64,000 bases of DNA. Origin: Hyalangium ruber (GTDB taxonomy: Bacteria > Myxococcota > Myxococcia > Myxococcales > Myxococcaceae). The notes beneath the pieces are model-generated. The model was not told the origin of the DNA. It did no database searches and worked only from the letters and a program-made list of their open reading frames with translations. Made by a program: the position numbers and the translations under genes. Location of the stretch: assembly GCF_034259325.1 (NCBI RefSeq), contig NZ_JAXIVS010000017.1:124001-188000 (forward strand), in the 5' to 3' direction. Below, piece after piece: positions 1,226 through 55,176 of this stretch (position 1 is the first letter of the stretch; each line of letters opens with the position of its first letter).

Positions 1226-1229
1226 GCGC

Positions 1230-3037: not shown

Positions 3038-3045
3038 GTGGGACA

Positions 3046-3077
3046 GGGTTTAACCCGGTCGCCCGCTGGAGGCGACC
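3046..3077. promoter_or_regulatory. Two adjacent inverted repeats between divergent genes
   Basis: The short region between the ABC operon start (3037, minus) and the methyltransferase start (3099, plus) contains a perfect GGGTTTAACCC palindrome at 3046-3056, immediately followed by a 7-bp repeat GGTCGCC at 3057-3063 and its exact complement GGCGACC at 3071-3077 with a 7-base spacer. Position and symmetry suit an operator acting on both genes. No regulator gene is adjacent, so this is inference only. Confidence 0.35.
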
Positions 3078-3098
3078 CTTCGTGTGGAGTCAGTGTCG

Positions 3099-4274: not shown

Positions 4275-4283
4275 CCCCCGGGT

Positions 4284-5525
4284 TCAGCGCGGCCGCTGGA
4301 AGATGAGCGTCACGTTCGTCCCGCCGAAGCCGAACGAGTTGCTCATCACCGCGTCCACCCGCTGCTCGCGCGCGACGTTGGGGATGCAGTCGAGCGTGAT
4401 GCGCGGGTCCTTCCGCTGCAGGTTGATGGTCGGCGGGAGGACGCCATTGCGCAGGGCCAGCACACTGATGACGGCCTCGGCTGCTCCCGCCGCGCCGTTC
4501 ATGTGGCCCGTCATGGACTTGGTGGAGGAGACGGCGAGCCGCCGCGAGGCCTCGCCGAACACGCGGGCGATGCCCTCCATCTCCAGCACGTCGCCGATGT
4601 CCGTGGAGGTGCCATGCGCGTTGACGTACCCGATGTCTCCGGGTGTGAGCCTCGCGTCCGCGAGTGCCAGCCGCATGCTGCGCTGAGCGCCCTCGTGCTC
4701 CGGGGCGGGCTGGGTGACATGGTGCGCGTCCGAGCTGGCGCCGTAGCCCGTGAGCTCCGCGTACACCCGCGCCCCACGGGCCCGGGCATGCTCCCACGAC
4801 TCGAGCACCAGCATTCCGGAGCCCTCGGCCAGCACGAAGCCATCCCGGTCCACGTCGAAGGGCCGACTGGCGGCCTGGGGCTCGTCATTTCGCGTCGAGA
4901 GTGCCTTCATCGCGGCGAAGCCACCCACGCCCAACACGGAGATGGGAGCCTCCGCGCCGCCGACCACCGCCGCGTCGAACTCCCCGCGCTGGATGCCCCG
5001 CATGGCCTCGCCGATGGCGTGGGCGCTGGTGGAGCACGCGGAGTTGGTGGACCAGCTCGGGCCTTTGATTCCGTGGCGCATGGAGATGTAGCCGGGCGCC
5101 ATGTTGATGATCATCTGCAGGATGAAGAACGGGCTGATGCGGTCCGCTCCCTTCTCCAGCACCTTGCGGTAGGTCTCCTCCAGGCTGGAGATGCCGCCGA
5201 TGCCCGAGCCGACGATGACGGCGACCCGCTCGGCATTCTGGGGAGAGATCTCCAGGCCTGAGTCCTTCAAGGCCATGTCCGCGGCGACCACCGCGAACTG
5301 GGCGAAGCGATCCATCCGCCGCACCTCCCGCCGCTCGATGAAGTCCTCGGGCTGGAAGTCCTTCACCTCTCCCGCGATGCGGCAGTCGAGGCCACTCGCA
5401 TCGAAGAGCGTGATGGGCCCTACCCCGCTCTGCCCTCGGACGAGCGCCTGCCAGCTCTTCTCTACCCCCGTTCCGCAAGGGCTGATGAGCCCGAGCCCGG
5501 TCACGACGACACGTTGCTTCTCCAT
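4284..5525 (-). CDS. fabF: 3-oxoacyl-ACP synthase II (FabF family)
   Basis: 413 residues, the usual FabF length. The thiolase-fold catalytic triad is intact at family positions: Cys164 in SACSTSAHA, His303 in NAHGTSTD and His340 in [11 protein letters not shown]. The enzyme condenses malonyl-ACP with acyl-ACP in fatty acid elongation. It stands apart from any acpP/fabG/fabD cluster and is instead divergent from a hotdog thioesterase and tetR gene across a perfect palindrome, so it is more likely a regulated extra copy, for membrane adaptation or a specialised acyl chain, than the housekeeping gene. This role is inference; the enzyme class is secure. Confidence 0.92.
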
Positions 5526-5551
5526 GGCGTTGTCCTCTCTTCCGCCTTAAT

Positions 5552-5565
5552 ATTATGACCATAAT
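5552..5565. promoter_or_regulatory. Palindromic operator with overlapping divergent -10 elements
   Basis: ATTATG-AC-CATAAT is a perfect 6-bp inverted repeat with a 2-bp centre, an AT-rich island in very GC-rich DNA. It lies 26 bp from the fabF start codon and 28 bp from the thioesterase start. Each arm read outward is CATAAT, a five-of-six match to the sigma-70 -10 hexamer, so one bound repressor could block both divergent promoters. The tetR-type gene two positions downstream is the obvious candidate ligand. TetR-type regulators normally bind 14-20 bp palindromes between divergent genes. Confidence 0.65.
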
Positions 5566-5593
5566 CCTATCGCCATCTGAAAGGCAGGAATCG

Positions 5594-6121
5594 ATGAGTG
5601 AGGAGACCGCCGCGCCCCGCACACGGACCGTGACGTGGAAGGACCCGAAGGAGGGAGTGACCGCCGCGAAGTCACTCCGCGGCGTGGAGTACCTGCGAGC
5701 CATCATCCAAGGAGAGGTGCCTGGCGCGCCCATCGCCTCGCTGATGGGCTTCGAGCCCGTGGAGGTTCAGGAGGGGCGCGCGGTCTTCACGGTGAAGCCC
5801 GCCGAGTACCACTACAACCCGATCGGGACGGTACATGGAGGGCTGGCGGCGACGCTGCTCGACTCCGCGATGGCGTGCGCGGTGCATTCCACCCTGGGGG
5901 TCGGCGAGGGTTACACCACGCTGGAGCTGCACGTGAACCTCGTGCGCCCCATCGCCCATGACACGGGGCGACTGACCTGCACGGGGGAGATCATCCATGT
6001 GGGTGGGCGCGTGGCAACGGCGCAAGGGCGGCTGACGGACGACGCGGGAAAGCTGTATGCCCACGGCACGACCACCTGCATGGTCTTCCGTGCTCCGGGT
6101 GCCGGCGGCCGGGAGAAATAG
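5594..6121 (+). CDS. PaaI-type hotdog-fold acyl-CoA thioesterase
   Basis: 175 residues from the ATG at 5594, preceded by GGCAGGAA; the frame opens at 5555 but the extra N-terminus would run through the operator. The PaaI/4HBT motif is present: HYNPIGTVHGGLAATLLDSA near residues 75-94, with the HGG and following Asp/Ser of the active site, then the C-terminal VGGRVATAQGRL strand. Such enzymes hydrolyse acyl- or aryl-CoA thioesters. It is followed 13 bp later by the tetR gene, so they form a transcript divergent from fabF and presumably act on related acyl substrates. Substrate not determinable. Confidence 0.87.
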   Translation: MSEETAAPRTRTVTWKDPKEGVTAAKSLRGVEYLRAIIQGEVPGAPIASLMGFEPVEVQEGRAVFTVKPAEYHYNPIGTVHGGLAATLLDSAMACAVHSTLGVGEGYTTLELHVNLVRPIAHDTGRLTCTGEIIHVGGRVATAQGRLTDDAGKLYAHGTTTCMVFRAPGAGGREK

Positions 6122-6134
6122 GAGACACGCACCG

Positions 6135-6743
6135 ATGCGGTATGGACCCGATCACAAGCAGGCCACGCACACCCGAATCCTCGCGGCGGCGCAGTCCCTG
6201 TTCCGCAAGCAGGGCTTCGCGGGCGCGAGCGTGGAGAAGGTCATGCGCGCGGCGGGCCTGACGGTGGGGGGCTTCTACGCCCACTTCGCCTCGAAAGAGG
6301 CACTGCTCGCCGAGTCGCTGCGGACCTTCATGCAGCAGAGCAGGATGCGCTGGGTCGGGGGACTCGAGGGGCTGCGCGGTCGAGAGTGGCTGAGCCCGTT
6401 CGTGCGCCGCTACCTCAACCCGCAGATCCGCGACAACCTGAAGAGCGGATGCATGATGCCCTCGCTCTGGTCGGACCTCACGCGGGCTTCCCCCAGCACC
6501 CAGGCCGTGCTCATCGAGGAGTTGGAGTTGCTGCTCCGAGAAGTCGAGGCGCGCCTTCGGGACGAGCCCGGCGCGACGGCACGGCAACGGGCGCTGGCCA
6601 CGGTGGCGATGTGCTTCGGGACGATGACGCTGGCCCGGGCCACGCGCTCACAGCCGCTCTCGGACGAGCTGCTCCAGGCGGCCCATGCCTTCCTGCTGGC
6701 GAGCGAGCAGGAGTCCTCTCCTCGGCGCGATGGGTCAGGTTGA
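6135..6743 (+). CDS. TetR/AcrR family transcriptional regulator
   Basis: 202 residues from the ATG at 6135, with AGGAGA nine bases upstream (6120-6125). The N-terminal 60 residues form a TetR helix-turn-helix: TRILAAAQSLFRKQGFAGAS, then VEKVMRAAGLTVGGFYAHFASKEALL. The C-terminal helical domain resembles TetR_C proteins with CxM(P)SL near residue 100. It probably represses its own operon and fabF by binding the ATTATG-AC-CATAAT palindrome at 5552-5565, with an acyl-CoA or fatty acid as likely inducer; both statements are inference from gene order. Its stop codon lies inside the -35 element of the next transcription unit. Confidence 0.9.
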   Translation: MRYGPDHKQATHTRILAAAQSLFRKQGFAGASVEKVMRAAGLTVGGFYAHFASKEALLAESLRTFMQQSRMRWVGGLEGLRGREWLSPFVRRYLNPQIRDNLKSGCMMPSLWSDLTRASPSTQAVLIEELELLLREVEARLRDEPGATARQRALATVAMCFGTMTLARATRSQPLSDELLQAAHAFLLASEQESSPRRDGSG

Positions 6744-6770
6744 CAGCTCCGTCGCGTCGCTTCATCTTAT
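6740..6770 (+). promoter_or_regulatory. Sigma-70 promoter for the thr leader / thrS-like gene
   Basis: A perfect TTGACA at 6740-6745 overlaps the tetR stop codon. TCTTAT at 6765-6770 (four of six to TATAAT, spacer 19) or CATCTT at 6763-6768 (spacer 17) can serve as -10. A start 6-8 bases downstream falls at about 6774-6778, on the ATG of the leader peptide, predicting a leaderless transcript. This agrees with the absence of any Shine-Dalgarno sequence before that ATG. Confidence 0.55.
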
Positions 6771-6775
6771 CCACC

Positions 6776-6850
6776 ATGAAGTGCGTCCAGCTCACGACTC
6801 CCACGACCACCACCACCCTCACGGGCGGGCCGGCGGTCGTGCGCACGTAA
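6776..6850 (+). CDS. Threonine-rich leader peptide (attenuation peptide)
   Basis: A 24-codon reading frame encoding MKCVQLTTPTTTTTLTGG followed by PAVVRT and a TAA stop. Nine of 24 residues are Thr, eight of them within ten codons (ACG, ACT and ACC, positions 6794-6823). It ends 112 bases before a threonyl-tRNA synthetase gene. This is the arrangement of classical amino-acid leader peptides, where ribosome stalling at runs of the regulated amino acid selects between alternative RNA hairpins. There is no Shine-Dalgarno sequence, but the promoter spacing predicts that the mRNA begins at this ATG, as for leaderless trpL in rhizobia. To my knowledge no such leader is described in myxobacteria. 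Confidence 0.7.
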   Translation: MKCVQLTTPTTTTTLTGGPAVVRT

Positions 6851-6857
6851 GCTAGCG

Positions 6858-6933
6858 CGCGGAGACCGCAGCCCCGCCGGAAGAACCGGACGGGGCGCTC
6901 CGCGAGAACCGCTTCAGCCCCGCTCCGGTCCGG
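6858..6933 (+). promoter_or_regulatory. Putative attenuator: mutually exclusive hairpins
   Basis: Four segments can pair in alternative ways. A, CCGGCGG at 6830-6836 inside the leader peptide, is complementary to part of B (6874-6880). B, GCCCCG-CCGG at 6871-6880, pairs with C (CCGG at 6886-6889 and CGGGGC at 6891-6896) around an AAGAA loop; the outer arms CGCGGAG (6858-6864) and CTCCGCG (6898-6904) extend this hairpin. C (CCGGACGGGGC, 6886-6896) can instead pair with D (GCCCC at 6917-6921 and GTCCGG at 6928-6933). This is the 1:2, 2:3, 3:4 logic of trp-type attenuators. Neither hairpin is followed by a T tract, so which is the terminator is uncertain; an effect on thrS translation is also possible. 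Confidence 0.5.
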
Positions 6934-6962
6934 CTTCACTCGTACCGACACGGAGAACGGAA

Positions 6963-8156
6963 ATGCTGAGCGAACACGATCATCGATCCCTGGGCGACCG
7001 CCTGGACCTCTTCCACCTGCAGGAGGAGGCCCCGGGCATGGTGTTCTGGCACCCACGCGGGTTCATCCTGTACCAACTGCTCGAGGAGCGCGTCCGGCGC
7101 GAGCTGTCCGCTGGGGGCTACCGCGAGGTGAGAACGCCGCAGATCCTCGGCCAGCGCATCTGGGAGAGCAGCGGGCACTGGCAGAACTTCCGAAGCGACA
7201 TGTTCGTCCTGAGCGACGGCGAGCGGCCTTTCGCGGTGAAGCCGGTGAGCTGCCCGGGCCACATCCAGCTCTTCCAGCGGATGGTGCCCTCGTTCCGAGC
7301 CATGCCCATCCGGCTCGCGGAGTTCGGGCTGGTCCACCGCAACGAGTCGTCGGGAGCGTTGCAGGGGCTGTTCCGCCTGCGGCAATTCACGCAGGACGAC
7401 GGCCACATCTTCTGCATGGAGGAGCAGGTGGCCGAAGAGGTCGCGGCGTTCTGTCGCTCGCTGCGCGCGTTCTACCGGGACTTTGGCTTCGAGGAGGTGC
7501 AGGTCGCCTTCAGCAGTCGCCCCGCGCAGCGCGCCGGGAGCGATGAGGTCTGGGACCGGGCCGAGGCCGCGCTGCTCGAGGCGGCCCGGAGCGTGGGGCT
7601 CGACTGCCGGATGCAACCCGGGCAGGGCGCGTTCTACGGGCCCAAGCTGGAGTTCATCCTGAAGGACCGCTCGGGCCGCGAGTGGCAGTGCGGGACGATC
7701 CAGCTCGACTTCGTGCTGCCCGAGCGCTTCGACCTCGGCTACGTGGACTCGGGAGGCGCGAGGCGGCGGCCGGCCATGCTGCACCGGGCGATCTTCGGCA
7801 GCGTGGAGCGCTTCCTGGGCATCCTGCTCGAGCACCACCAGGGCTCGCTGCCCGCCTGGCTGGCACCGGAGCAGATCCGTGTGCTGCCCGTGGGGCAGGA
7901 CTCGCAGGCCTATGCCTCGGAGGTGCGCGGGCGTCTGGAGGCGGCGGGGCTCCGGGTACACGAGGACGCGCGCGGCGAGACGCTGTCGCGGCGCATCCTG
8001 GACTCGCACCATGACGGCGTGCCGTTCGTCGTCCTGGTGGGGGCGCGGGAGCAGGCGGGGCGCTCGGTGCAGATTCGCGAGCGGAGCGGAGTCCAGCGGC
8101 AGGTCGCGCTGGAGTCCGCGGTGTCCGAGCTGGGGGAGTCCTGCCACTTGAGCTGA
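6963..8156 (+). CDS. Truncated threonyl-tRNA synthetase paralogue (no TGS/editing domains)
   Basis: 397 residues against about 640 for full ThrRS. It begins at the catalytic domain and lacks the N-terminal TGS and editing domains. Class II motifs are intact: motif 2 FGLVHRNESS with RLRQFTQDDGHIF, and motif 3 from MLHRAIFGSVERF. The zinc ligands are Cys97, His148 and His274; their spacings (51 and 126) are exactly those of Cys334/His385/His511 in E. coli ThrRS. An anticodon-binding domain fills residues 300-390. It should charge tRNA-Thr without post-transfer editing. The leader peptide upstream suggests induction when Thr-tRNA runs low. It may be a stress copy or resistance to a ThrRS-targeting antibiotic such as borrelidin or obafluorin; both are inference. 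Confidence 0.88.
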   Translation: MLSEHDHRSLGDRLDLFHLQEEAPGMVFWHPRGFILYQLLEERVRRELSAGGYREVRTPQILGQRIWESSGHWQNFRSDMFVLSDGERPFAVKPVSCPGHIQLFQRMVPSFRAMPIRLAEFGLVHRNESSGALQGLFRLRQFTQDDGHIFCMEEQVAEEVAAFCRSLRAFYRDFGFEEVQVAFSSRPAQRAGSDEVWDRAEAALLEAARSVGLDCRMQPGQGAFYGPKLEFILKDRSGREWQCGTIQLDFVLPERFDLGYVDSGGARRRPAMLHRAIFGSVERFLGILLEHHQGSLPAWLAPEQIRVLPVGQDSQAYASEVRGRLEAAGLRVHEDARGETLSRRILDSHHDGVPFVVLVGAREQAGRSVQIRERSGVQRQVALESAVSELGESCHLS

Positions 8157-8196
8157 GGTGGTAGTGTGCCCGCCCTTCCCTCTGGAGGACGAGCCC

Positions 8197-9159
8197 GTGC
8201 CCCCGACCGCGCCCCGCTCCATGTACCCGCCGATCGAGCCCTACAACACCGGCCGGCTCCGCGTGTCCACCTTGCATGAGGTGTACTTCGAGGAGTCCGG
8301 CAACCCGAAGGGCAAGCCGGTGGTCTTCGTGCATGGAGGGCCGGGAGGGGGCACGGACCCCAAGCAGCGGCGCTTCTTCGATCCGGACGTGTATCGCATC
8401 GTCCTGTTCGACCAGCGCGGCTGCGGGCAGAGCACGCCGCACGCCAGCGTGGAAGAGAACACCACGTGGCACCTGGTGGAGGACATGGAGACGATCCGCC
8501 GCCACCTGGGCATCGAGCGATGGATGGTCTTCGGTGGCTCGTGGGGCAGCACGCTCTCGCTGGCCTACGCACAGAAACACCCGGAGCGCGTCACGGAGCT
8601 GGTGCTGCGGGGCATCTTCCTGTTGCGCAAGCAGGAGATCGACTGGTTCTACCAGCGAGGCGCGAGCGCCCTCTTCCCGGACGCATGGGAGGGCTTCCTG
8701 GCGCCGATTCCTCCCGAGGAGCGAGGGAACCTGCTCCACGCCTACCACCGGCGACTGATGGGGGAGGATGCGCGGGCGCGACAGGAGGCGGCTCGGGCTT
8801 GGAGCACCTGGGAGGGCCGAACCATCACCCTGTTGCCGAACGAGGACCTCATCTCGCACCACGCGGAGGATGAGTTCTCGCTCGCGTTCGCGCGCATCGA
8901 GTGCCACTACTTCGTCCACGGTGCGTTCCTGCGCACCGAGACGCAGTTGCTGGACGACGTGCCGCGCATCCGTCACATCCCGGCCATCATCATTCAGGGC
9001 CGCTATGACATCCCCTGCCCGATGGAGAGCGCCTGGGCGCTGCACAAGGCCTGGCCAGAGGCGGACTTCAAGATCATCCCGAACGCGGGACACTCGGCAT
9101 ACGAGCCGGCCATTACCTCCGCGCTCGTGGAGGCCACGGACCGCTTCCGTGGCCGTTGA
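8197..9159 (+). CDS. pip: Proline iminopeptidase (alpha/beta hydrolase, S33)
   Basis: 320 residues from the GTG at 8197, which has GGAGG eight bases upstream; a GTG at 8158 opens the frame but has no such signal. The S33 proline iminopeptidase pattern is strong: MYPPIEPYNTGRL at the start, oxyanion motif VHGGPGGG, FDQRGCGQS, nucleophile elbow GGSWGS, and the catalytic Asp and His in GRYDIPCP and NAGHSA. It removes N-terminal proline from peptides in the cytoplasm. It follows the thrS-like gene by 40 bp and precedes the toxin cassette by 6 bp, so it may be co-transcribed with both. Confidence 0.93.
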   Translation: MPPTAPRSMYPPIEPYNTGRLRVSTLHEVYFEESGNPKGKPVVFVHGGPGGGTDPKQRRFFDPDVYRIVLFDQRGCGQSTPHASVEENTTWHLVEDMETIRRHLGIERWMVFGGSWGSTLSLAYAQKHPERVTELVLRGIFLLRKQEIDWFYQRGASALFPDAWEGFLAPIPPEERGNLLHAYHRRLMGEDARARQEAARAWSTWEGRTITLLPNEDLISHHAEDEFSLAFARIECHYFVHGAFLRTETQLLDDVPRIRHIPAIIIQGRYDIPCPMESAWALHKAWPEADFKIIPNAGHSAYEPAITSALVEATDRFRGR

Positions 9160-9165
9160 GTCTTG

Positions 9166-10636
<1,471 letters not shown>

Positions 10637-12034
10637 TCAGCGTTTGCTCAGCGCCTGCCCCAGCTCCTCGTACAGGTGGATGGCCGCGCGGATGGCCTTC
10701 TCCCAGTCACCCAGGTGCAGGCTCTCGTTCTCCCCGTGCGCATAGGTGTACGGATCCTCCACGCCAATCAGCAGCGCGGGCACCCCGCCCAGCTCCCGCG
10801 CGAAGGGCTCCACGAACGGAATCGAGCCGCCGCAGCCAATCGTCACCGCCTCCCGCCCATACCCCTTCTGCAACGCCCGGAACGCCGCCTGGAACGCCGG
10901 GTGCGACGAGTCCGTGTACCACCAGCCCGACGGCGAATCCTCGCGGATGTGCAGCTCCAGCCCCCACGGCGTCACCTTCCGCAGGTGCTCCACCAGCAGG
11001 CGCTGCACGTCCTGCGCGTCCATGTCCGGCACCACCCGGATGCCCACCCGCGCCCACGCCGACTCGCAGACGATGTTGCGCGCCTCCTCTCGCGTGCTGG
11101 CCTGGATGGCGTTGATGGCGATCGACGGCTGGCGCCAGTTCGTCTCCCACGGGTGTCGCCCTCCGCCCAGCATCTCCACCTTCGGCAGCAGGCCCACCTG
11201 CTCGCGGAACTGCGCGTCGTCTCCCGGCAGTGCCTGGATGCTCTTCTTCTCCGCCTCCGTCAGCGGCTTCACCCGGTCCAGCACGCCTGGGATGGCAATC
11301 GAGCCGTCCGGGTTCGTCAGCGTCGCCAGCATCCGGCACAGCCCCATCACCGGATCCGGAATCGGCCCGCCCCACATCCCCGAATGCACCGCCTGCTTCA
11401 ACCCCCGCACCTCCACCTCGATCGTCACCAGCCCGCGCAGCGCCGTGGTGATCGACGGCAGCCCCACGTCGAAGTTGGACGTGTCCGTCAGCACGATGGC
11501 GTCCGCCTGCAGCAGCTTTGCGTGCTTCTGCAGGAACTCCGTCAGGTGGCTGCTGCCCGCCTCCTCCTCGCCTTCAATCACCACCTTCACGTTGAGTGGC
11601 AGTGAGCCCGCTCCCTTCAGCCACGCGTCCACCGCAGACGAGTGAACCACGATGCCGGCCTTGTCATCCGCCGCGCCGCGGCCATAGAGCCGACCGTCGC
11701 GCTCCTCCGGCTCGAACGGATCCTTCTGCTTCCACTTGCCCAGGTCCCCCGCCGGCTGCACGTCATGGTGCGCGTACAACAGCAGCGTGGGCTTGCCCGG
11801 CGCCTTGAGCACCTCTCCGTAGACGTAGGGGTGTGCTCCCTCGATTTCGAGGAGCTGCACATTTTCAAAGCCACGGTCCTTGAGCAGCTTCGCGGTGGCC
11901 TCGGCGCTCTTGCGCACCTGGGAGGCGTCGAACCCTGCGAAGGAGACGCTGGGAATGCGCACCAGGGCCTTCAGGTCCTCCAAGTACGCGTTCTTCTGGG
12001 ACTCGAAACGGGCAAGGGCTTGGTCGATGGGCAT
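10637..12034 (-). CDS. M20 family dipeptidase / metallopeptidase
   Basis: 465 residues. M20 metal-binding motifs are visible: [10 protein letters not shown] (His90, Asp92 region), [10 protein letters not shown] (Asp123), EGEEEAGS (Glu157-158), and the C-terminal His of TYAHGENE. A dimerisation domain lies between about 200 and 330. Closest in type to CNDP/PepV-like dipeptidases that act on dipeptides or acyl amino acids. The ATG at 12034 is the natural start before [11 protein letters not shown]; its ribosome-binding site is weak and the frame is open further upstream. Abuts the convergent immunity gene with no gap and is divergent from a receiver gene. Confidence 0.88.
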
Positions 12035-45981: not shown

Positions 45982-46113
45982 GAATGCCTCCAGCACGAGG
46001 TGACACCCAGGCTACTGAAACGCTACAGAGGGAACGACGACGCTCCAGGTCCTCTCCGCTGCGTGGAAGAGGGAATGAAACTTTTTGGCCCTCCCCGGGT
46101 TGGTGACAGCGTG

Positions 46114-47799
46114 ATGGACTCGATGCCTCGTCGCTCAGCCTTGTGGTGCCTGGCGGCACTCCTTGTCCTGGGGTGCGCCTCGGCCTCCAAGCCTTCGGTT
46201 CCTCCGTCCGCGACTCCGACCGCGCCCTCCGTGCCCTCACTCGCATTGCCGGACAGCGGTTGGAGCGAGGAGAAGCGCGCGCTCCATGCGCTGCGACGCC
46301 TTGCCTATGGGCCCTCGCCCCAGGACTGGCAGGAGGTGCGTCGCCTCGGAGTCGCCCGGTGGATGGCGCTTCAGCTCTATCCCGAGCACCTCCCGGATGA
46401 GGCCATGGCCGCGCGTCTGGCGCCGCTGCCCACCCTGCGATTGAGCACCGAGGAGCTGATCGCCCGCTACCCGCCTTTGCGCCAGCAGGCTCGCGAGCTG
46501 GGCTTCCCCCTAGAGACCCGTGAAGACCGCCGCGATCTCACGATGATGCTCGGCCCCGACGCCCTGCCGCGACGCGTGGCAGGCGACCTCATGGCCCAGA
46601 AGCTCATCCGCGCCGTGGAGAGCCAGCACCAACTCCAGGAGGTGCTCGTCGACTTCTGGTTCAACCACTTCAACGTCTCCGCCGAGAAGGGCCCCGTGCG
46701 GTGGATGGTCACCTCCTACGAGCGCGACGCCATCCGCCCCCACGTCTTCGGCCGCTTCCGTGACCTGCTCCGCGCCACCGCCCGCCACCCGGCGATGCTC
46801 TTCTACCTGGACAACTGGACGAGCGTCCGCGACGGCTTCGAGCCCCCGCGCCGCCGCTCCGGCATGCCTCCCGCCTTCCGCAAGAACGCGCGCGGCCTCA
46901 ACGAGAACTACGCCCGCGAGTTACTCGAGCTGCACACCCTCGGCGTGGACGGTGGCTACACCCAGCAGGACGTGCGCGAAGTGGCCCGCATCTTCACCGG
47001 CTGGTCCCTCAACCGCCCACGCGTGGCTCCCTCCTTCGTCTTCCGCGCCAGTGCGCATGACGCCGGAGAGAAGACCGTGCTGGGCCACACCTTCCCCGCG
47101 GGCGGTGGTGAGCAGGACGGAGAACGCGTCCTGGACATGCTCTCCCGTCACCCCGCCACCGCGCGCTTCCTCGCCACCAAGCTGGCGCGCAAGTTCGTCT
47201 CGGATGAGCCCCCGGCCGCGCTCGTGGACCGGCTGGCCCAGGTGTTCCTCGACACCGACGGAGACTTGCGCGCCCTCTATACCGCCCTCTTCACCTCTCC
47301 CGAGTTCTGGTCCGACGCGGCCTGGAGCGCCAAGACCCGGACGCCCCTGGAGCTCGTGGCCTCCAGCATCCGCGCCCTCGGCGGCACCACCACTGGCGAC
47401 TTCCCGCTGGCCCGCGCCGTGGAGCGCATGGGCGAGCCCCTCTACCGCGCCCCCGCGCCCACCGGCTACCCCGAGCACGCCGCGCCCTGGGTCAACGCAG
47501 GTGCCCTCGTGGTCCGCCTCAACTTCGCCCTCGCCCTCGCCTCCGACCGCGTGCGCGGCACCGACGTGAACGTGATGGCGCTCGTGCCCCAGCCGCCTCC
47601 CGCCGACACTGGCGCGCTCGTGGATGCCCTGGCGCTGCGCCTGCTCTACGAGCCCCTCTCTCCCCAGACGCGCGCCACGCTCCTGGCCGCCCTCGAGCCG
47701 GGCGAGGACGAGCGCATGCCCGATGGCGAGGTGCGCCCCGTGGACGTGCGCCGTGCCGTCGGCCTCCTCCTCGGCTCCCCCGAGTTCCAGAAGCAGTGA
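46114..47799 (+). CDS. DUF1800 family lipoprotein
   Basis: 561 residues from the ATG at 46114; lipobox LLVLGC then a Ser/Pro-rich linker. The DUF1800 core follows: HALRRLAYGPSPQDWQEV, a LVDFWFNHFNVSAEKGP segment, NENYARELLELHTLGVDGGYTQQDVREVAR and a C-terminal SSPEF-like repeat. DUF1800 proteins are almost always encoded beside DUF1501 proteins, as here (9 bp gap), and are thought to work together outside the cytoplasm; the reaction is unknown. Divergent from the SitA5-like gene. Confidence 0.85.
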   Translation: MDSMPRRSALWCLAALLVLGCASASKPSVPPSATPTAPSVPSLALPDSGWSEEKRALHALRRLAYGPSPQDWQEVRRLGVARWMALQLYPEHLPDEAMAARLAPLPTLRLSTEELIARYPPLRQQARELGFPLETREDRRDLTMMLGPDALPRRVAGDLMAQKLIRAVESQHQLQEVLVDFWFNHFNVSAEKGPVRWMVTSYERDAIRPHVFGRFRDLLRATARHPAMLFYLDNWTSVRDGFEPPRRRSGMPPAFRKNARGLNENYARELLELHTLGVDGGYTQQDVREVARIFTGWSLNRPRVAPSFVFRASAHDAGEKTVLGHTFPAGGGEQDGERVLDMLSRHPATARFLATKLARKFVSDEPPAALVDRLAQVFLDTDGDLRALYTALFTSPEFWSDAAWSAKTRTPLELVASSIRALGGTTTGDFPLARAVERMGEPLYRAPAPTGYPEHAAPWVNAGALVVRLNFALALASDRVRGTDVNVMALVPQPPPADTGALVDALALRLLYEPLSPQTRATLLAALEPGEDERMPDGEVRPVDVRRAVGLLLGSPEFQKQ

Positions 47800-47807
47800 G
47801 GCCTGTC

Positions 47808-49052
47808 ATGTCCCTGTCCCGACGCGCCCTGCTCCGCTCCGCCGGCCTCTCCCTGCTGGGACTGGCCACCCTGCCTCCCTTCCTCGCCCGCGCCGCCGAG
47901 GCCCTCCCCACCGGCCGCCGCAAGGTGCTCGTCACCCTCTTCCTGCGCGGCGGCGCCGATGGCCTCTCCCTCCTGCCACCCGTGGGAGACCCGGACTACT
48001 ACCGCCTCCGTCCACAGCTCGCGCTCGCCGCACCGGGCTCGGCAGAGGACGCGGCGCTCCGGTTGGACGACACCTTCGGCCTCCACCCAGGCCTGGAACC
48101 TCTGCTCCCCTGGTGGCGCGAGGGCGTGCTCGCCGCCGTTCCCGCCGTGGGACTGCCCCACCCCGTGCGCAGCCACTTCGACGCTCAGGACTTCGTCGAG
48201 TCCGGCACCCCCGGCGTGAAGTCCACCCGCGACGGCTACCTCAACCGCGCCCTGGCCTTGCTGCCCGTGGATCCCTCCGCCGGCGCCTTCCGCGCCGTGG
48301 CCCTGCAGCCCACCCTCCCCCGCGCCCTGGCGGGAGACGCTCCGGCGCTCGCCCTCGACTCCCTGCAGAGCTTCCGCCTGCGCGTCCCCAGGCGCACCGG
48401 CGCCCTCAGCTTCGACTCGCTCTATGCCTCCGCCGTGGACGAGGCCCTGCGCACCACCGGCGTGGAGACCTCCTCGGCGCTCTCCCTGGTGACCGACCGC
48501 CAGCTCGCCGACCAGCCGCCCCAGCATGGCGCCACCTATCCCCGCTCGCCCCTCGGTCGCCGCCTGCAGGACCTGGCCCGTCTCATCCACGCCGACGTCG
48601 GCCTTCAGCTCGCCGCCACCGAGTCCGGCGGCTGGGACACCCACATCCTCCAGGGACGCGGCAAAGGCCCCTTCGCCACCCGGGCGAAGGACCTCGGCGA
48701 GAGCCTGGCCGCTTTCGCCACGGACCTGGGCCCCCGGCTGGCCGACGTGCTCGTGGTGGTGCTCAGCGAGTTCGGCCGCACCGCCCGGGAGAATGGCAAC
48801 CGAGGCACCGACCACGGCACCGGCGGCGCCGTCCTCCTGCTGGGCGGCACCGTGCGCGGCGGCCGAGTCGCAGGACCGTGGAGGGGTCTGTCCGAACCCA
48901 ACCTGTTAGATGGGAGAGATGTGCCCTCGCTCACCGATGTGCGCAACGTCCTCGCCGAGGCCCTCATGACGCACTGCGGCCTGCTCACGCCGGAGGCCGT
49001 ATTTCCAGGGCTCGGCGCGCGGCCCGCCCTGCTCCGTCTCTTGGGTGACTGA
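47808..49052 (+). CDS. DUF1501 family exported protein
   Basis: 414 residues from the ATG at 47808 with GAGG six bases upstream; a GTG at 47796 overlapping the previous stop is the alternative. A twin-arginine-type signal SRRALLRSAGLSLLGLA leads a sulfatase-like DUF1501 domain: LVTLFLRGGADGLSLL, SHFDAQDFVESGTPG, GGWDTH and LSEFGRTARENGNRGTDHGTG. Partner of the DUF1800 protein encoded just upstream. Tat export suggests folding with a metal cofactor in the cytoplasm. Function unknown. Confidence 0.86.
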   Translation: MSLSRRALLRSAGLSLLGLATLPPFLARAAEALPTGRRKVLVTLFLRGGADGLSLLPPVGDPDYYRLRPQLALAAPGSAEDAALRLDDTFGLHPGLEPLLPWWREGVLAAVPAVGLPHPVRSHFDAQDFVESGTPGVKSTRDGYLNRALALLPVDPSAGAFRAVALQPTLPRALAGDAPALALDSLQSFRLRVPRRTGALSFDSLYASAVDEALRTTGVETSSALSLVTDRQLADQPPQHGATYPRSPLGRRLQDLARLIHADVGLQLAATESGGWDTHILQGRGKGPFATRAKDLGESLAAFATDLGPRLADVLVVVLSEFGRTARENGNRGTDHGTGGAVLLLGGTVRGGRVAGPWRGLSEPNLLDGRDVPSLTDVRNVLAEALMTHCGLLTPEAVFPGLGARPALLRLLGD

Positions 49053-49116: not shown

Positions 49117-50763
49117 ATGATTGAAAGCGACGCCTCAGCCGGGGGCGCGCCACCCACCGTGGTGGATCCCCTGCTGGGAAAAGTCCTCAACGAGCGCTTC
49201 AAGATCCTGGAGGCATTGGGCTCCGGCGGGATGGGCCGTGTCTACAAGGCCATGCAAGCGCCCCTGGACCGGCCCGTCGCGCTCAAGGTCCTCAATCCCC
49301 AGTACGGTCAGGACAAGGACCCGGGCTTCCAGCGTCGCTTCTTCCTCGAGGCCAGCGTCACCGCCCGGCTGCGCCACCCCAACACCGTCACCGTCATCGA
49401 CTACGGAAAGACCGACGACGGCATCTACTACATCGCCATGGAGTACCTGGAAGGGCAGACGCTCTCCCAGCTCCTCACGCAGATGGGCCCCCTGCCGTGG
49501 GCCCGCGCGCTCAACATCGCCCAGCAGATCGCCCGCTCCCTGCGCGAGGCGCACAAGATCGGCCTCATCCACCGCGACCTGAAGCCCGCCAACGTGATGA
49601 TCCTCAATCAGGAGACGGATCACGACGTGGTGAAGGTGCTGGACTTCGGCCTGGTGAAGTCCTTCATCCCCGACGGCGGCCAGTTCCCCGCCGACGTGTC
49701 GCTGACGCAGGCGGGCGTCATCCTCGGCTCGCCGCAGTACATGGCGCCCGAGCAGGCGCGCAACATCTCGGATCCGCGCGGCGACGTGTACTCGCTGGGC
49801 GTGGTGCTCTACCAGATGCTGCTGGGCCGCCCGCCGTTCCACGCCGAGCAGAGCATCGACATCATCGTCAAGCACCTCAACGAGCCGCCGCCGGCCTTCT
49901 CCGCGCTGTGGCCCAACCACACCATCCCTCCCGAGGTGGAGGCGCTGGTGATGAAGTGCCTGGCCAAGCGCCCCGCGGACCGCTTCGACTCCATGGACGC
50001 GGTGCTCGAGAGCATGCGCCGCGCCTCGGCCAACGGCGGCATCAGCGGCGTGTTCACCGGCCCGCGCAGCTTCCCCGGCGTGGGCAATACCGGGCCGCTC
50101 ACCGGCCCCATCTCCCCGCCAGCCTCGGCCCTCTCGCCCTCGGGCGCGTCCACCGTGGCGCTCGACATCTCCGTGGAGGAGCCCGAGGCGCGCAAGCGCC
50201 GCAACTCCCTGGCCATGGCCCTGTTCGGCGGCTCGGTGCTGCTCGGCGTCGGCGTGGCCCTGGTGCTCGCCTTGCGCTCGCCCACGCCCAGCCCTCCGCC
50301 AGTGCTGCCTCCGCCCGCGCAGCAGCCCGTGGCCACCGCCCCGGTGCCACCGCCTCCCGCGCCCGTCCAGGAGACCGCTCCCGCCTTCAAGGCGCTCACC
50401 CCCGAGTCGAACGCGGAGCCCGTCCCCGAGGAGCTCGTCCCCAACGCGCAGAAGCCGCCTACCGAGACGGCACCGGCCCTGCCCGCGCAGGTGCGCTTCC
50501 TCATCGCCAGCGAGCCGAGCGGCGCCCGGGTGACGCACGCGGGCCGCAAGCTGGGCCAGACGCCGCTGGAGCTGAAGCTCCCCGCAGACGACGCGGGCCG
50601 TGCGAGCGCCGAGCTGACCTTCGAGCTGGCTGGCTACCCTCGTGCCACCGTCACCGCCGAGGGTGAGGGCCCCGAGGTGCGCTTCACGCACAAGCTGAAG
50701 AAGAAGAGCTCGCGGCCCAAGTCGTCAGGCTCGCGTGGTTACAAGGACGATCCCTACCAGTGA
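49117..50763 (+). CDS. Transmembrane Ser/Thr protein kinase with PEGA domain
   Basis: 548 residues. Hanks-type kinase domain (about 28-300) with the glycine loop LGSGGMGRVYKA, Lys in VALKVL, IHRDLKPANVM, VLDFGLV and SPQYMAPEQA; all catalytic residues are intact. A single transmembrane helix lies at about 366-388 (ALFGGSVLLGVGVALVLAL), then a long Pro-rich spacer and a C-terminal PEGA domain (SEPSGARVTHAGRKLGQTPL) that should face the periplasm. The next gene, a TonB-dependent receptor, starts inside its stop codon, so the kinase is probably linked to nutrient uptake or envelope sensing. Confidence 0.93.
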   Translation: MIESDASAGGAPPTVVDPLLGKVLNERFKILEALGSGGMGRVYKAMQAPLDRPVALKVLNPQYGQDKDPGFQRRFFLEASVTARLRHPNTVTVIDYGKTDDGIYYIAMEYLEGQTLSQLLTQMGPLPWARALNIAQQIARSLREAHKIGLIHRDLKPANVMILNQETDHDVVKVLDFGLVKSFIPDGGQFPADVSLTQAGVILGSPQYMAPEQARNISDPRGDVYSLGVVLYQMLLGRPPFHAEQSIDIIVKHLNEPPPAFSALWPNHTIPPEVEALVMKCLAKRPADRFDSMDAVLESMRRASANGGISGVFTGPRSFPGVGNTGPLTGPISPPASALSPSGASTVALDISVEEPEARKRRNSLAMALFGGSVLLGVGVALVLALRSPTPSPPPVLPPPAQQPVATAPVPPPPAPVQETAPAFKALTPESNAEPVPEELVPNAQKPPTETAPALPAQVRFLIASEPSGARVTHAGRKLGQTPLELKLPADDAGRASAELTFELAGYPRATVTAEGEGPEVRFTHKLKKKSSRPKSSGSRGYKDDPYQ

Positions 50764-53288
50764 AAATGCCCGGAGCTTTCAAGCACGCCGGCGTCCTCGC
50801 GCTGTGTCTGTTCGCGGGGAATGCCATGGCCGACGAGCGCCTGGAGGCGCGCCGCCACTTCCGCAATGGCATGAGCCTCATCGCCCAGGGGCAGTTCGAC
50901 CAGGGCATCGCCGAGCTGCAAGAGGCCTACGTCATCAAGCCTCACCCCAACGTCCTCTACAACATCGCGCGCGCGTACCTGGACGCGGGCCGCTCGGTCG
51001 AGGCGCTGGAGTGGTACCGGCGCTACCTCACCTTCAACCCACCGGACGCCGAGTCGGTACGCGCCACCATCGCCCGGCTGGAGGCCACGGTGAACGCGGC
51101 CGAGCCCGCGAAGCCGGCCGATCCACTCCCTATGCCTCCGCCCCCGCAGAAGGGCGGCCCCGCGCTGGACGCGCAGGCCATGGCCGCGCTCCTCGAGCGG
51201 CTGGAGAAGGCCATTGCCCGCGCGGAGGCACTGCCCGCGGCGCCCGCCACGCCTGTCCCCGCTCCCTCGGCGACGCCCGGTACGGCCACGCCAGGAGCGC
51301 AGGGCTCCGGCACCTCCACCGATGACGAGGGCGCGGTGCCCTACGAGGAGCGCGTGGTGACGGCCAGCCGTCGCGCCCAGTCCGCGCTGGAGGCCCCCAA
51401 CGCCACCACGGTCATCACCGCCGAGGACATCCGCCTCTCGGGTGCCACCAGCCTGGTGGAGCTGCTGCGCCGGGTGCCTGGCGCGGACGTTATGGAGCTG
51501 GGCGTGGGCAGCGCCAACTACTCGCTGCGTGGCTTCAACCAGCGCGTGGCCAACAAGGTGCTCGTGCTGGTGGACGGGCGCACCGAGTACCAGGACTTCC
51601 TGGGCATGACGCTCTGGTCCAGCATGCCCATCGCGCTGGAGGAGATCGAGCGCATCGAGGTCATTCGCGGACCGGGCAGCGCCCTGTACGGCGCCAACGC
51701 GATGCTGGGCGTCGTCAACATCATCACCCGCGCGCCGGGCACCGGGCCGCGCGCCCAGTTCCAGGCCATCGCGGGTGGCGGCAACACCGCGGGAGGCTCC
51801 TTCCTCAGCCATGGAGCCACGGGCGCGCTGCGCTACCGCATGTCCGTGGGCTACGGGCAGATGGACAAGTGGAGCCGGGACTTCGCCGAGGAGCGCCAGG
51901 ACGTGGTGCGGCGCATGCCCGAGGAGACCGTGGGCCACCGCGGCGCCCGGGGCAACCTGTCCACCGAGTACACCTTCGCGCCGGGCTTCGACCTGGGGCT
52001 GTCCGCGGGCCTCAACCGCTTCTCCACGGAGCTGTACCCGCTGGGGGTGCTGCGCAACTTCTACATGGACGGCATCACCTCCTACGCCAAGGCGGACGGG
52101 GGCCTGGGGCCGGTGAAGCTCAAGTTCTTCTGGAACCACCTGAACGTGGACGCGGGGCCGCAGTACGAGCCCATCGGCCAGCGCTCGCTGGCCACGCGTG
52201 TCACCTCGCACCTCTTCAACGGAGAGGCCCTCTTCAGCAAGGGCTTCGAGCTGGCCGGAGAGCACCAGCTCAACGTCGGCGTCGAGGGTCGCCTCAAGCG
52301 CGTGACGTGGAACTACCTCGGCCCCGGGCTGAAAGAGGAGTTCCACGCCGCCGCCTTCGTGCAGGACGAGTGGCGGCCGGTGCGCCCCCTGCGCCTGCTG
52401 GCCTCGTACCGCGTGGACCGGCACCCGCTGCTGGACGCGGGCAAGCCGGGCCTGGCGCACTCGCCTCGCGTGTCCGCCATCGTCATCCCCATCGAGGGGC
52501 ACGCCTTCCGCGCCAGCGCGGCCTCCGCCTTCCGGGAGCCCACCTTCCTGGAGAGCTACACGGACCTGTTCGTCCCCGCTCCCGGCGTGCCCGGCGCCAG
52601 CGCCAACACCCGAGGCAGCCGCTCCCTGAAGCCCGAGCGGCTGGTGGCCCTGGAGCTGGGCTACCGCGGCGAGGCGCCCGCCCTGGGCATCGACTGGGAC
52701 GTGGCCCTCTACCAGAACACGGTGAAGGACCTCATCGACCTGTCGGCGGTGCAGCGACTGCCGGCCAACGAGTCCTTCGACCCGAGCACCGGCACGTACC
52801 TGCTGGGCCGCTCCTTCTTCCAGAACGAGCAGGCCACCTATGTCTCGCGCGGGGCGGAGGCCGGCGTCTCCCTGGCCCCCATCGACGGCCTGGGCATCAA
52901 GGCCAGCGCCGCCCTGCAGAAGGTGTCGGCGGAGGGCGAGGCGAACGAGCAGTGCGGCCCGTGCAACCAGGCGCCCCAGCTCAAGCTCTTCGGTGGCCTC
53001 ACCTACCGCACGCGCGCGGACCTGGAGTTCGGCATCGACGCGACCTACACCTCGGGCACCACCTGGATCGAACGCGAGCCCAACGCGGCGGACCCCACCA
53101 GCATCCAGCTCATCGCCAACCCGCTGGCCGCCTACACCCTGCTCAACGCCCGCGTGGGCTACGAGGTGCTCGAGGATCGGCTCACGGTGGCCCTGGTGGG
53201 CTCGAACCTGGCCAGCGCCCACAACCAGCACCCGCTCGGCAACCGCATCGAGCGCCGCGTCTACGCGACGCTGACGGTGACTCCATGA
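50760..53288 (+). CDS. TonB-dependent receptor with N-terminal TPR domain
   Basis: 842 residues. Signal peptide ends near NAMADE. Residues 25-110 are two to three TPR units (ARRHFRNGMSLIAQGQFDQG, then VLYNIARAYLDAGRSVEALE), followed by a Pro/Ala linker with a helix. A plug domain (about 195-320, EERVVTASRRAQSALEAPN and VIRGPGSALYGANAMLGVVN) and a 22-strand-type barrel follow. A TPR in place of the usual short TonB box or signalling domain is uncommon. GTG 50760 overlaps the kinase stop; ATG 50766 is in frame. The ending (TLTVTP) lacks the usual terminal aromatic. Substrate unknown. Confidence 0.88.
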   Translation: MKMPGAFKHAGVLALCLFAGNAMADERLEARRHFRNGMSLIAQGQFDQGIAELQEAYVIKPHPNVLYNIARAYLDAGRSVEALEWYRRYLTFNPPDAESVRATIARLEATVNAAEPAKPADPLPMPPPPQKGGPALDAQAMAALLERLEKAIARAEALPAAPATPVPAPSATPGTATPGAQGSGTSTDDEGAVPYEERVVTASRRAQSALEAPNATTVITAEDIRLSGATSLVELLRRVPGADVMELGVGSANYSLRGFNQRVANKVLVLVDGRTEYQDFLGMTLWSSMPIALEEIERIEVIRGPGSALYGANAMLGVVNIITRAPGTGPRAQFQAIAGGGNTAGGSFLSHGATGALRYRMSVGYGQMDKWSRDFAEERQDVVRRMPEETVGHRGARGNLSTEYTFAPGFDLGLSAGLNRFSTELYPLGVLRNFYMDGITSYAKADGGLGPVKLKFFWNHLNVDAGPQYEPIGQRSLATRVTSHLFNGEALFSKGFELAGEHQLNVGVEGRLKRVTWNYLGPGLKEEFHAAAFVQDEWRPVRPLRLLASYRVDRHPLLDAGKPGLAHSPRVSAIVIPIEGHAFRASAASAFREPTFLESYTDLFVPAPGVPGASANTRGSRSLKPERLVALELGYRGEAPALGIDWDVALYQNTVKDLIDLSAVQRLPANESFDPSTGTYLLGRSFFQNEQATYVSRGAEAGVSLAPIDGLGIKASAALQKVSAEGEANEQCGPCNQAPQLKLFGGLTYRTRADLEFGIDATYTSGTTWIEREPNAADPTSIQLIANPLAAYTLLNARVGYEVLEDRLTVALVGSNLASAHNQHPLGNRIERRVYATLTVTP

Positions 53289-54520
53289 ACCGCTCCGCCG
53301 CCCGAGGCCTGGCCCTCGTGGGCCTCTGCTTCTCCACCCTCCTGCCGCTGGGCTGCGAGCCGCCGGACGTCGTGGCCACCGAGGACCGCCAGCAGCAGAC
53401 GCAGACGGCGCGCATCGAGGGCACCGTCGTGCTGCAGGGCCGTGCTCGCGGCAACGCCGTGGTGTTCCTCTACGACGCCGAGCGCCCGCCGCCGCCTCAG
53501 GGCACCGGGCGCCCCCTCTCCTTCACCGTGGTGCCCCAGGAGGAGCTCTTCGGCGCGGAGCTCGGCACTGCCTCCGTGGGGCCCTTCACCGCGCCCTTCA
53601 TCTTCCCCCTGGTGCCTCCGGGCCGTTACCTGCTGCGCGGCTTCATCGACGGGGACCCGTGCCGCATCGGCGGCGCGTTCTGCCATGGCCCGGACTTCAT
53701 CCCCTGGTTCAACGTCACCGCCGAGCCCAATGGAGGAGACGTGGCCGGCGCCGCCATCGACCCGCTCACCCGCGTGCAGCGCGTGGTGGAGGTGGACGTG
53801 AGCGCCAGCGGCGAGCCCCTGCCCGTGCTGGGCGTGCCGGTGAGCTTCTCCGACGCGGCCGCCGTGCCGACCGACCGCCCCGCCTTCGAGGTGGAGGGCA
53901 CCTCGCGCTTCGAGGCCGGAGAGAACCTCAAGGTGCTCAAGCTCCACTCCCGCGCCATGCCCGAGGGCGTGATGAACCTGCGGGACCCGCTCTTCCTCGT
54001 GCGCTTCATGGACGAGAACCACGATGGCGTGCCGGATGACGCCAACCGCGACGGCAACCCGGACCTCTGGCCGCGCGTGGTGGTGCGCAAGCTCGCCAAC
54101 GGCGCCGCGCTCACCGACGAGAACGACCTGGACAACAACGGGGTGCTCGACACCCAGGGCGTGGACTATGCGCACGCCGACGGCTCCCAGGACGGCAAGC
54201 CGGACCTCGTGGTGCTCGCCTCCGGCCTCGTACCCGACACGTTCATCAGCGGCCTCACCGACGCCGAGGGCAACCCGCGCATGGACGCCGTGCTGCCCTT
54301 GAAGGAGCTGACCCTGGCCGTGCGTCCCATCGCCTTCGATGCACGGGACGCCAGCGCGCCCGCGATGCTCGCGAAGGTGCCCTCCGGCCGCTACGCGGTC
54401 ATCGTCCTTCAGTCGACCGGACAGACGTGGCGAGTGCCCAACGAGCTCTCCCCGGCGCTGGCCGAGCGGCTGGGCCTGCCTCCCCTGGAGCGCCAGGCCT
54501 TCGTTCTGGAAATCCCCTAA
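53285..54520 (+). CDS. Lipoprotein of the TonB-receptor operon, calcium-binding-like repeats
   Basis: 411 residues; the ATG overlaps the receptor stop as ATGA. Signal peptide ending in LLPLGC (Cys24). A carboxypeptidase-regulatory-like beta-sandwich follows (RIEGTVVLQGRARGNAVVFLYDAE). Asp/Asn-rich loops DENHDGVPDDANRDGNPD and DLDNNGVLDTQ near 240-290 look like EF-hand/thrombospondin type-3 calcium sites. Probably a surface or periplasmic partner of the TonB receptor, perhaps a substrate-capture lipoprotein by analogy with SusD-type partners, although it has no SusD similarity that I can see. Confidence 0.75.
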   Translation: MNRSAARGLALVGLCFSTLLPLGCEPPDVVATEDRQQQTQTARIEGTVVLQGRARGNAVVFLYDAERPPPPQGTGRPLSFTVVPQEELFGAELGTASVGPFTAPFIFPLVPPGRYLLRGFIDGDPCRIGGAFCHGPDFIPWFNVTAEPNGGDVAGAAIDPLTRVQRVVEVDVSASGEPLPVLGVPVSFSDAAAVPTDRPAFEVEGTSRFEAGENLKVLKLHSRAMPEGVMNLRDPLFLVRFMDENHDGVPDDANRDGNPDLWPRVVVRKLANGAALTDENDLDNNGVLDTQGVDYAHADGSQDGKPDLVVLASGLVPDTFISGLTDAEGNPRMDAVLPLKELTLAVRPIAFDARDASAPAMLAKVPSGRYAVIVLQSTGQTWRVPNELSPALAERLGLPPLERQAFVLEIP

Positions 54521-54699: not shown

Positions 54700-55176
54700 A
54701 TGAAGGCTGCAACGCTCGCTCCTGTCGCCGCTATCTCCGTTCCTCGTCCCGCCGTGGAGTCGGCTCGCCAAGTGTTGAAAGTCGCCACGGGGACGTCCCA
54801 GCGCGTCCTGCTCATCGATGACAGCCGCTCCATCCGGACGCTGCTGAAGATCTACCTGATGGCTCGCAACTTCGAGTACGTCGAGGCCGAGTCCGGTGAG
54901 GAGGCCCTGCGGCTGCTGGACCAGGGCGGGATCGACCTGGTGCTGACCGACTTCCGCATGGAGGGCATGGACGGCGCCGAGTTCGCCACCCAGGTGCGCG
55001 CCAACAAGAACATGCGCATCGCCCGCACGCCCATCCTGATGATGACGGGCGAGTCGAACGTGGCCGAGGTCCGCTCGCTGGGCCAGAAGGCCGGCATCAA
55101 CGCCTTCGTGCGCAAGCCGGTGAGCTGCGCGCAGCTGATGACGCTGGTGGACACGATCCTGCCGCGCAACACCTGA
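54700..55176 (+). CDS. Single-domain response regulator with N-terminal extension
   Basis: 158 residues: a 33-residue low-complexity N-terminal extension, then a receiver (RVLLIDDSRSIRTLLKIYLM) with the phospho-acceptor in LTDFRMEGMDGAEF, Thr in MMTGES and Lys in VRKPVSC. It resembles the first gene of the chemosensory operon (31407-31790) in KIYLM and KPVS segments, so it may accept phosphate from the same kinase. A strong promoter precedes it and a hairpin follows, so it is monocistronic. Confidence 0.9.
   Translation: MKAATLAPVAAISVPRPAVESARQVLKVATGTSQRVLLIDDSRSIRTLLKIYLMARNFEYVEAESGEEALRLLDQGGIDLVLTDFRMEGMDGAEFATQVRANKNMRIARTPILMMTGESNVAEVRSLGQKAGINAFVRKPVSCAQLMTLVDTILPRNT

Follow-up and report, generated by a model that had tools for sequence, protein, structure and literature searches.

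The stretch of DNA analysed here (the window), 64,000 nucleotides of a Hyalangium ruber contig (NZ_JAXIVS010000017.1, positions 124,001 to 188,000), contains three consecutive genes encoding a transmembrane Hanks-type Ser/Thr kinase, a TonB-dependent receptor with an N-terminal tetratricopeptide repeat (TPR) domain, and a lipoprotein with Asp/Asn-rich loops. We lean towards the view that the three products form a trans-envelope unit that signals from the outer membrane to the cytoplasm, in which the TPR domain of the receptor holds the C-terminal tail of the kinase. After a variable linker the kinase ends in [YF]K[DE][DN]PY followed by at most one residue, and it does so not only in the Myxococcaceae but also in other classes; the receptor TPR domain lies between a signal-peptide-like start and a conserved stretch, EERVVTASRR, which we read as a putative TonB box.

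In the mechanism that we envisage the receptor, probably together with the lipoprotein, would bind a ligand outside the cell, and its TPR domain in the periplasm would contact the periplasmic end of the kinase through the tail, with the PEGA domain nearby. Ligand binding and pulling by TonB would alter the contact between TPR and tail, and kinase activity would change; the signal would run from receptor to TPR, from TPR to the tail and PEGA, and from these to the kinase. An initial annotation of the window, made from the sequence alone, had suggested either a surface-sensing complex, which fits this picture, or phospho-regulated uptake; a direction from receptor to kinase is the likelier one, the reverse of the latter idea.

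The kinase tail and its candidate partner

In an alignment of 22 kinases the tail has a mean column identity of 0.96, compared with 0.80 in the kinase domain, 0.59 in PEGA and 0.40 in the linker that leads to it; 15 to 36 residues separate an invariant leucine (L527) from the tail. (This alignment excludes loci L041, L042, which is frameshifted, and L044, which has no kinase; L057 and L060 were dropped as repeats.) Each of the 23 relatives whose kinase end could be read has the tail, as does the window kinase; within the family it is YK[DE]DPY or FKDNPY, with a stop or a single Q after it. In Archangium lansinium (L042, 7361-9010) the kinase frame is shifted near codon 295 and the tail is intact in the other frame. 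All nine loci from other families or classes that include a kinase end have it as well, in the form YK[DE]DPY, FKENPY or YKENPY with a K after it once; the barrel segments of the distant loci are 35-48% identical to that of the window receptor.

The codons of the tail vary silently, with four codons in use for Pro, two for Lys and two for the second Asp, and this codon usage shows that the tail peptide is under selection at the protein level rather than at that of the DNA alone. It is exceedingly improbable, in our judgement, that the tail is instead kept for a role of the DNA in translating the next gene, as a ribosome-binding site or overlap. The AAGGA of the Lys-Asp codons does lie about 12 bases before the receptor GTG, and in the second kinase family described below the tail-coding sequence does run into the start of the TPR gene, but AAG alternates with AAA and Asp with Glu, all four Pro codons occur, and the tail persists where the next start is 18-586 bases away (L048, L049, L050). 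Codon use thus largely refutes a ribosome-binding site as the cause of the conservation.

A scan of 195 genomes of the phylum for YK[DE][DN]PY returned 91 sites in 87 genomes, against 9 for a reversed control. Within the family 72 of 96 genomes contain the pattern; among the 24 that do not, 11 end in FK[DE]NPY (10 plus L062) and G087 in FKDDPYQ, and the remaining 12 comprise two cut by contig ends (G047 and G052) and ten with no strong lipoprotein match. Besides the sites that fall within other fetched loci, 30 of the 91 were inspected individually with their flanks. In 27 the motif is terminal, with receptor sequence after it; the other three lie inside one unrelated protein of a single genus. 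Two further sites, in G056 and G167, are off-target as well. One of the 27 (L260, in genome G116, of 97% completeness) adjoins the TPR part of a receptor only. Here (L301, 1092-3389) the YKDDPY kinase is accompanied by a TPR protein of 226 residues, a receptor remnant in which the start and the TPR are retained and which breaks off at the TonB-box-like stretch; no barrel or lipoprotein was detected within the 8.5 kb read.

The same genome contains a second kinase and TPR pair. Apart from itself, the best genome-wide match to the receptor TPR domain (E 2.4e-9) is a TPR protein at L071 (8297-9028), whose gene overlaps that of a kinase (9000-10472) ending in DAIIDPFAQ. The pair resembles the window unit in that a PEGA kinase has a conserved C-terminus of the [DN]P[FY] type and its gene overlaps one for a homologous TPR protein, and differs in that its TPR protein has a C-terminal hydrophobic stretch rather than a barrel and that no lipoprotein of the window family belongs to it. 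Proteins of the L071 type were found at E<=1e-30 in 43 of the 92 family genomes searched, and in all 30 loci sampled from 44 listed places the kinase preceding the TPR gene ends in RD..I[DN]PF plus two or three residues. The overlap is dual-coding in this second family, and the I-D-P-F codons show 23 base differences from the consensus, counted over related genomes and so not independent events; 21 are silent in the kinase and alter the TPR protein, again unlike what a role for the DNA would predict, and 2 (Asp to Asn) do the reverse. The host genome has at least 154 Pkinase matches (150 of 235 candidates scored), of which 37 have their C-terminus inside the fetched stretches and satisfy a kinase regular expression; among these 37, only the window and L071 kinases have [DN]P[FYW] at the end or followed by no more than three residues.

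Because the minimal pair common to the second family and to G116 is a kinase tail and a TPR, we infer that the TPR is the likely partner of the tail, and the evidence points more to the tail beyond PEGA than to PEGA itself as the TPR ligand. Basic residues are conserved in the receptor TPR (R27 is invariant in 23 sequences, and R31, R32, R71, R78 and R88 are at least 90% conserved) and the tail is acidic, which is suggestive only. No compensating changes between tail and TPR stood out on reading the alignment, and no test went beyond that reading. It is distinctly unlikely that the tail binds another periplasmic partner, such as a PDZ protease, a chaperone or the lipoprotein. A short C-terminal aromatic motif would also suit PDZ domains, but the Tyr may have no residue, a Q or a K after it, PF in the second family has two or three, and the neighbour common to that family and G116 is the TPR, not the lipoprotein or barrel.

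Several observations nonetheless weigh against docking of the tail by the TPR, or against the unit as a whole. The free carboxylate is not at a fixed place, since the motif leaves two or three residues after PF in the second family and none or one after PY here, and no peptide groove or classical carboxylate clamp could be shown in the predicted TPR of two repeats and a cap helix. A TPR neighbour does not require the tail, because a kinase and TPR gene at L137 (6936-11073), and probably also at L137 958-5107, where the downstream TPR was not confirmed by a match, lack it. A distant lipoprotein relative (L242) occurs without receptor or kinase. Finally, the tail may have been inherited from a common ancestor of both kinase families, which may then not be independent.

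Two arrangements involving TPRs may be described further. In the L137 region just mentioned (958-11073) two large kinases lie in tandem, and similar small genes come after each of them; it is the second small gene that matches the TPR, and neither kinase has a DP[YF] tail. At L065 (5217-10553) a TonB-dependent receptor combines TPR, PEGA repeats, plug and barrel in a single chain; the divergently oriented gene beside it encodes a lipoprotein-like product that has DANGDG loops and a carboxypeptidase-regulatory-like domain.

Gene order, junctions and neighbouring genes

Conservation of the three-gene order had been proposed as a check by the initial annotation, and the order holds far beyond the genus. 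Of 26 family loci fetched, 24 are distinct (L057 duplicates L039, L060 duplicates L043, and L041 and L256 seem to belong to a single contig); kinase, receptor and lipoprotein follow one another in all 23 that have the three genes, and the 24th, L044, begins inside the receptor. Fifteen genomes outside the family were matched and 11 loci fetched from them, nine of which show the complete set in the same order, although in two of them the contig ends within the kinase; L240, which starts inside the receptor, and L242 are the other two. The loci were selected for receptor or lipoprotein content, so these counts speak for order and not for presence. As to presence, the lipoprotein alone is matched in 89 of the 96 family genomes, in 4 of these only weakly (G013, G048, G088, G089). 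The kinase is matched in 94 of 96 at E<=1e-90, with some matches representing a paralogue, and the lipoprotein profile reaches 101 of the 195 phylum genomes at E<=1e-8. Judged by relative position in assemblies of genus g19, the Myxococcus xanthus DK1622 counterpart may be close to MXAN_6044, which PMC3222651 lists as a TonB-dependent receptor.

The four-base overlaps that had been described at both junctions hold without qualification at the second, a true ATGA overlap of receptor and lipoprotein; at the first the overlap is four bases (GTGA) only if the receptor starts at the GTG at 50760 rather than at an alternative ATG at 50766. Judging from the sequences of the relatives, the GTG is favoured, because L039 and L056 retain the overlap and lack an ATG at the corresponding position. 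With gene starts in the relatives chosen by rule, the receptor and lipoprotein genes overlap by exactly four bases in 20 of 24 distinct loci; of 22 loci scorable for the kinase and receptor junction, 11 have a four-base overlap, 6 are within 5 bases, and 5 have the genes 18-586 bases apart. This recurrence of overlaps is more than chance.

Overlaps alone suggest co-expression only, and the receptor and lipoprotein resemble an uptake pair, so it is worth considering an uptake operon whose kinase is co-transcribed without touching the receptor, uses PEGA to sense the envelope, and controls cytoplasmic enzymes or transporter expression. Just upstream of the kinase (46000-49052) there are also DUF1800 and DUF1501 genes, which overlap each other by four bases. 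We regard this explanation as unlikely. It leaves unexplained why the periplasmic tail is fixed in different families and classes, why a TPR stands ahead of the TonB-box-like stretch, and why G116 has a kinase and TPR remnant; moreover, among the loci read, the DUF pair is complete upstream only in the nearest relative (L039 and L057, one contig), with a partial DUF1501 match in L056. The DUF pair was accordingly dropped as a member of the unit.

On the other side, 180 bases past the lipoprotein gene, lies a gene for a single-domain response regulator (54700-55176). A search found it beside the operon in 14 of the 24 distinct family loci, and it too was dropped as a member of the unit.

Predicted architecture of the three proteins

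The description of the three genes in the initial annotation is borne out by Pfam and sequence analysis, and their coordinates and main features are collected in Table 1.

Table 1. Genes and features of the kinase, receptor and lipoprotein unit (window coordinates).
Feature	Position	Strand	Details
Kinase gene, transmembrane Hanks-type Ser/Thr kinase, 548 aa	49117..50763	+	Kinase domain 29-295, transmembrane stretch 368-386, predicted periplasmic PEGA 462-529, C-terminal tail
Kinase domain	49201..50001	+	K57, HRDLKPAN 152-159, DFG 176-178, APE 210-212 invariant in 22/22 aligned sequences
Transmembrane stretch, single, residues 368-386	50218..50274	+	Hydropathy 2.39 over 19 residues
PEGA domain, predicted periplasmic, residues 462-529	50500..50703	+	Pfam
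Conserved C-terminal tail YKDDPYQ	50740..50760	+	Sole YK[DE][DN]PY-coding site found in the 10.77 Mb host genome
Receptor gene, TonB-dependent receptor, 842 aa, N-terminal TPR domain	50760..53288	+	
TPR domain of receptor, periplasmic, residues 26-114	50835..51101	+	Five predicted helices
Conserved stretch EERVVTASRR between TPR linker and plug, residues 196-205	51342..51377	+	Sequence and alignment
Plug domain, residues 210-318	51387..51713	+	Pfam
Beta-barrel, residues 394-817	51939..53210	+	Pfam and structure model
Lipoprotein gene, 411 aa	53285..54520	+	Family without Pfam or NCBIfam model
Asp/Asn-rich loop DENHDGVPDDANRD	54011..54052	+	Candidate calcium site; alignment of 22
Asp/Asn-rich loop DLDNNGVLD	54125..54151	+	Candidate calcium site; alignment of 22

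The kinase has the Pkinase domain (E 3.5e-48), transmembrane stretch and extracytoplasmic PEGA domain of a PEGA-bearing Hanks kinase, the side of the membrane being predicted from the order of the parts. The PEGA match has an E value of 1e-4 and 22.5 bits against a cut-off of 20.8, and PEGA is found at E<=0.1 in all 22 aligned kinases, the window kinase included. Since the kinase domain precedes the sole transmembrane stretch and PEGA follows it, catalysis is predicted to be cytoplasmic and PEGA and the tail periplasmic. This topology bears directly on the proposal of phospho-regulated uptake, for which tight gene coupling may be adduced: phosphorylation would occur in the cytoplasm, away from an outer-membrane receptor, and to our knowledge the periplasm contains no ATP. 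Regulated uptake of that kind is unlikely, and phosphorylation of the receptor by the kinase, which we consider highly improbable, was dropped on these grounds.

The receptor is assigned to the TonB-dependent receptors by Pfam matches to Plug (1.7e-23) and to the barrel (5.2e-32); a TPR_16 match covers residues 36-97. Among receptors of solved structure, those it matches best by profile are the colicin I receptor and BtuB, and the closest named receptor found, that of Hyalangium versicolor, is 78% identical. The ligand class is not indicated by NCBIfam, where the best match, to the TOL_0244 family, scores 174 bits, below the cut-off of 645. The structure model has a pLDDT of 68 overall and of 78-88 in most TPR blocks. 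A CGPC in the barrel (C732 and C735, 52953-52964) lies in a low-confidence loop of the model, and its Cys pair is invariant in the 23 aligned sequences. (The receptor alignment excludes L041 and L044; L057 and L060 were dropped as repeats.)

The lipoprotein has no match in Pfam or NCBIfam at E<=0.001. A lipobox-like LPLGC is present, and its cysteine (C24) is invariant in all 22 rows of an alignment that includes the window protein (L050 and L064, with starts unresolved, and L041 were excluded; L057 and L060 were dropped). The first of the two candidate calcium loops includes DENHDGVPDD. D243 and D281 are invariant, and D247, G248, D251, D252, D283 and G286 are at least 90% conserved; L062 has lost the first loop, and in L053 little of the second is left. 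Asp/Asn loops bind calcium in dockerins and EF-hands; here such loops are kept in most of the 22 sequences, and the sole match to a solved structure, 5lxv, is weak (E 0.071). The model of the lipoprotein (pLDDT 78) is mostly beta; a Foldseek search with it gave no match at E<=0.001, and VIA-align gave Z scores up to 7.2, within the range that the tool calls common, the best being with fimbrial or adhesin beta-sandwiches, Mfa3 at the top. In L240, L241, L243 and L246 distant lipoprotein relatives match the family two or more times in one long frame, in a repeat-like manner.

Relation to known systems and significance

TonB-dependent transducers of the FecA-FecR-FecI kind have a periplasmic STN signalling domain before the TonB box, a FecR partner and an extracytoplasmic function (ECF) sigma factor. 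The window unit is similar in having a TonB-dependent receptor with a predicted extra periplasmic domain before a putative TonB box, together with a co-encoded inner-membrane partner; unlike those systems, the domain is TPR rather than STN, a Hanks kinase with PEGA and a tail replaces FecR and the ECF sigma factor, and a lipoprotein belongs to the operon. Pfam finds no STN domain in the receptor at E<=0.001, and there are no FecR-like anti-sigma or ECF sigma genes among the eight window proteins scanned with Pfam (kinase, receptor, lipoprotein, DUF1800, DUF1501, response regulator, a molybdopterin oxidoreductase and one unmatched). The unit is therefore not filed as a FecA-type transducer. It could, we suggest tentatively, represent a new class of TonB-dependent transducer in which the TPR of the receptor grips the tail of a Hanks kinase, the plug of tail and TPR being a reusable module that joins other kinases to free TPR proteins.

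SusC/SusD systems are also pairs of a TonB-dependent receptor and a lipoprotein, and SusD has an alpha-helical fold. The translational coupling of receptor and lipoprotein is shared with these, whereas the window lipoprotein is not a SusD by sequence (no Pfam or NCBIfam match at E<=0.001) and a kinase is part of the unit. In EEVD-type recognition a three-repeat TPR binds a free C-terminus through a carboxylate clamp; here two repeats and a cap helix are predicted, and the residues after the motif vary. Another published parallel is PknS of Xanthomonas citri, also a transmembrane Hanks kinase with a modulating periplasmic region in which TPRs are involved; there the TPRs form the kinase's own periplasmic domain, fused to the kinase itself, and the main text does not contain the term TonB (PMC13147305). 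None of the literature matches listed describes a TonB-dependent receptor that is linked to a Hanks kinase; subscription journals lie outside that scope, so unpublished status is not implied.

Little is generally known of what kinases like this one sense through their outside parts. The operon described here pairs one of them with a named receptor on the outside, offers a handle of six residues, and has relatives throughout the phylum. If the proposed contact between tail and TPR is correct, TonB-dependent receptors would have a signalling route by way of Ser/Thr kinases in addition to the one that uses sigma factors, and the Myxococcota would have a direct line from ligand binding at the outer membrane to Ser/Thr phosphorylation.

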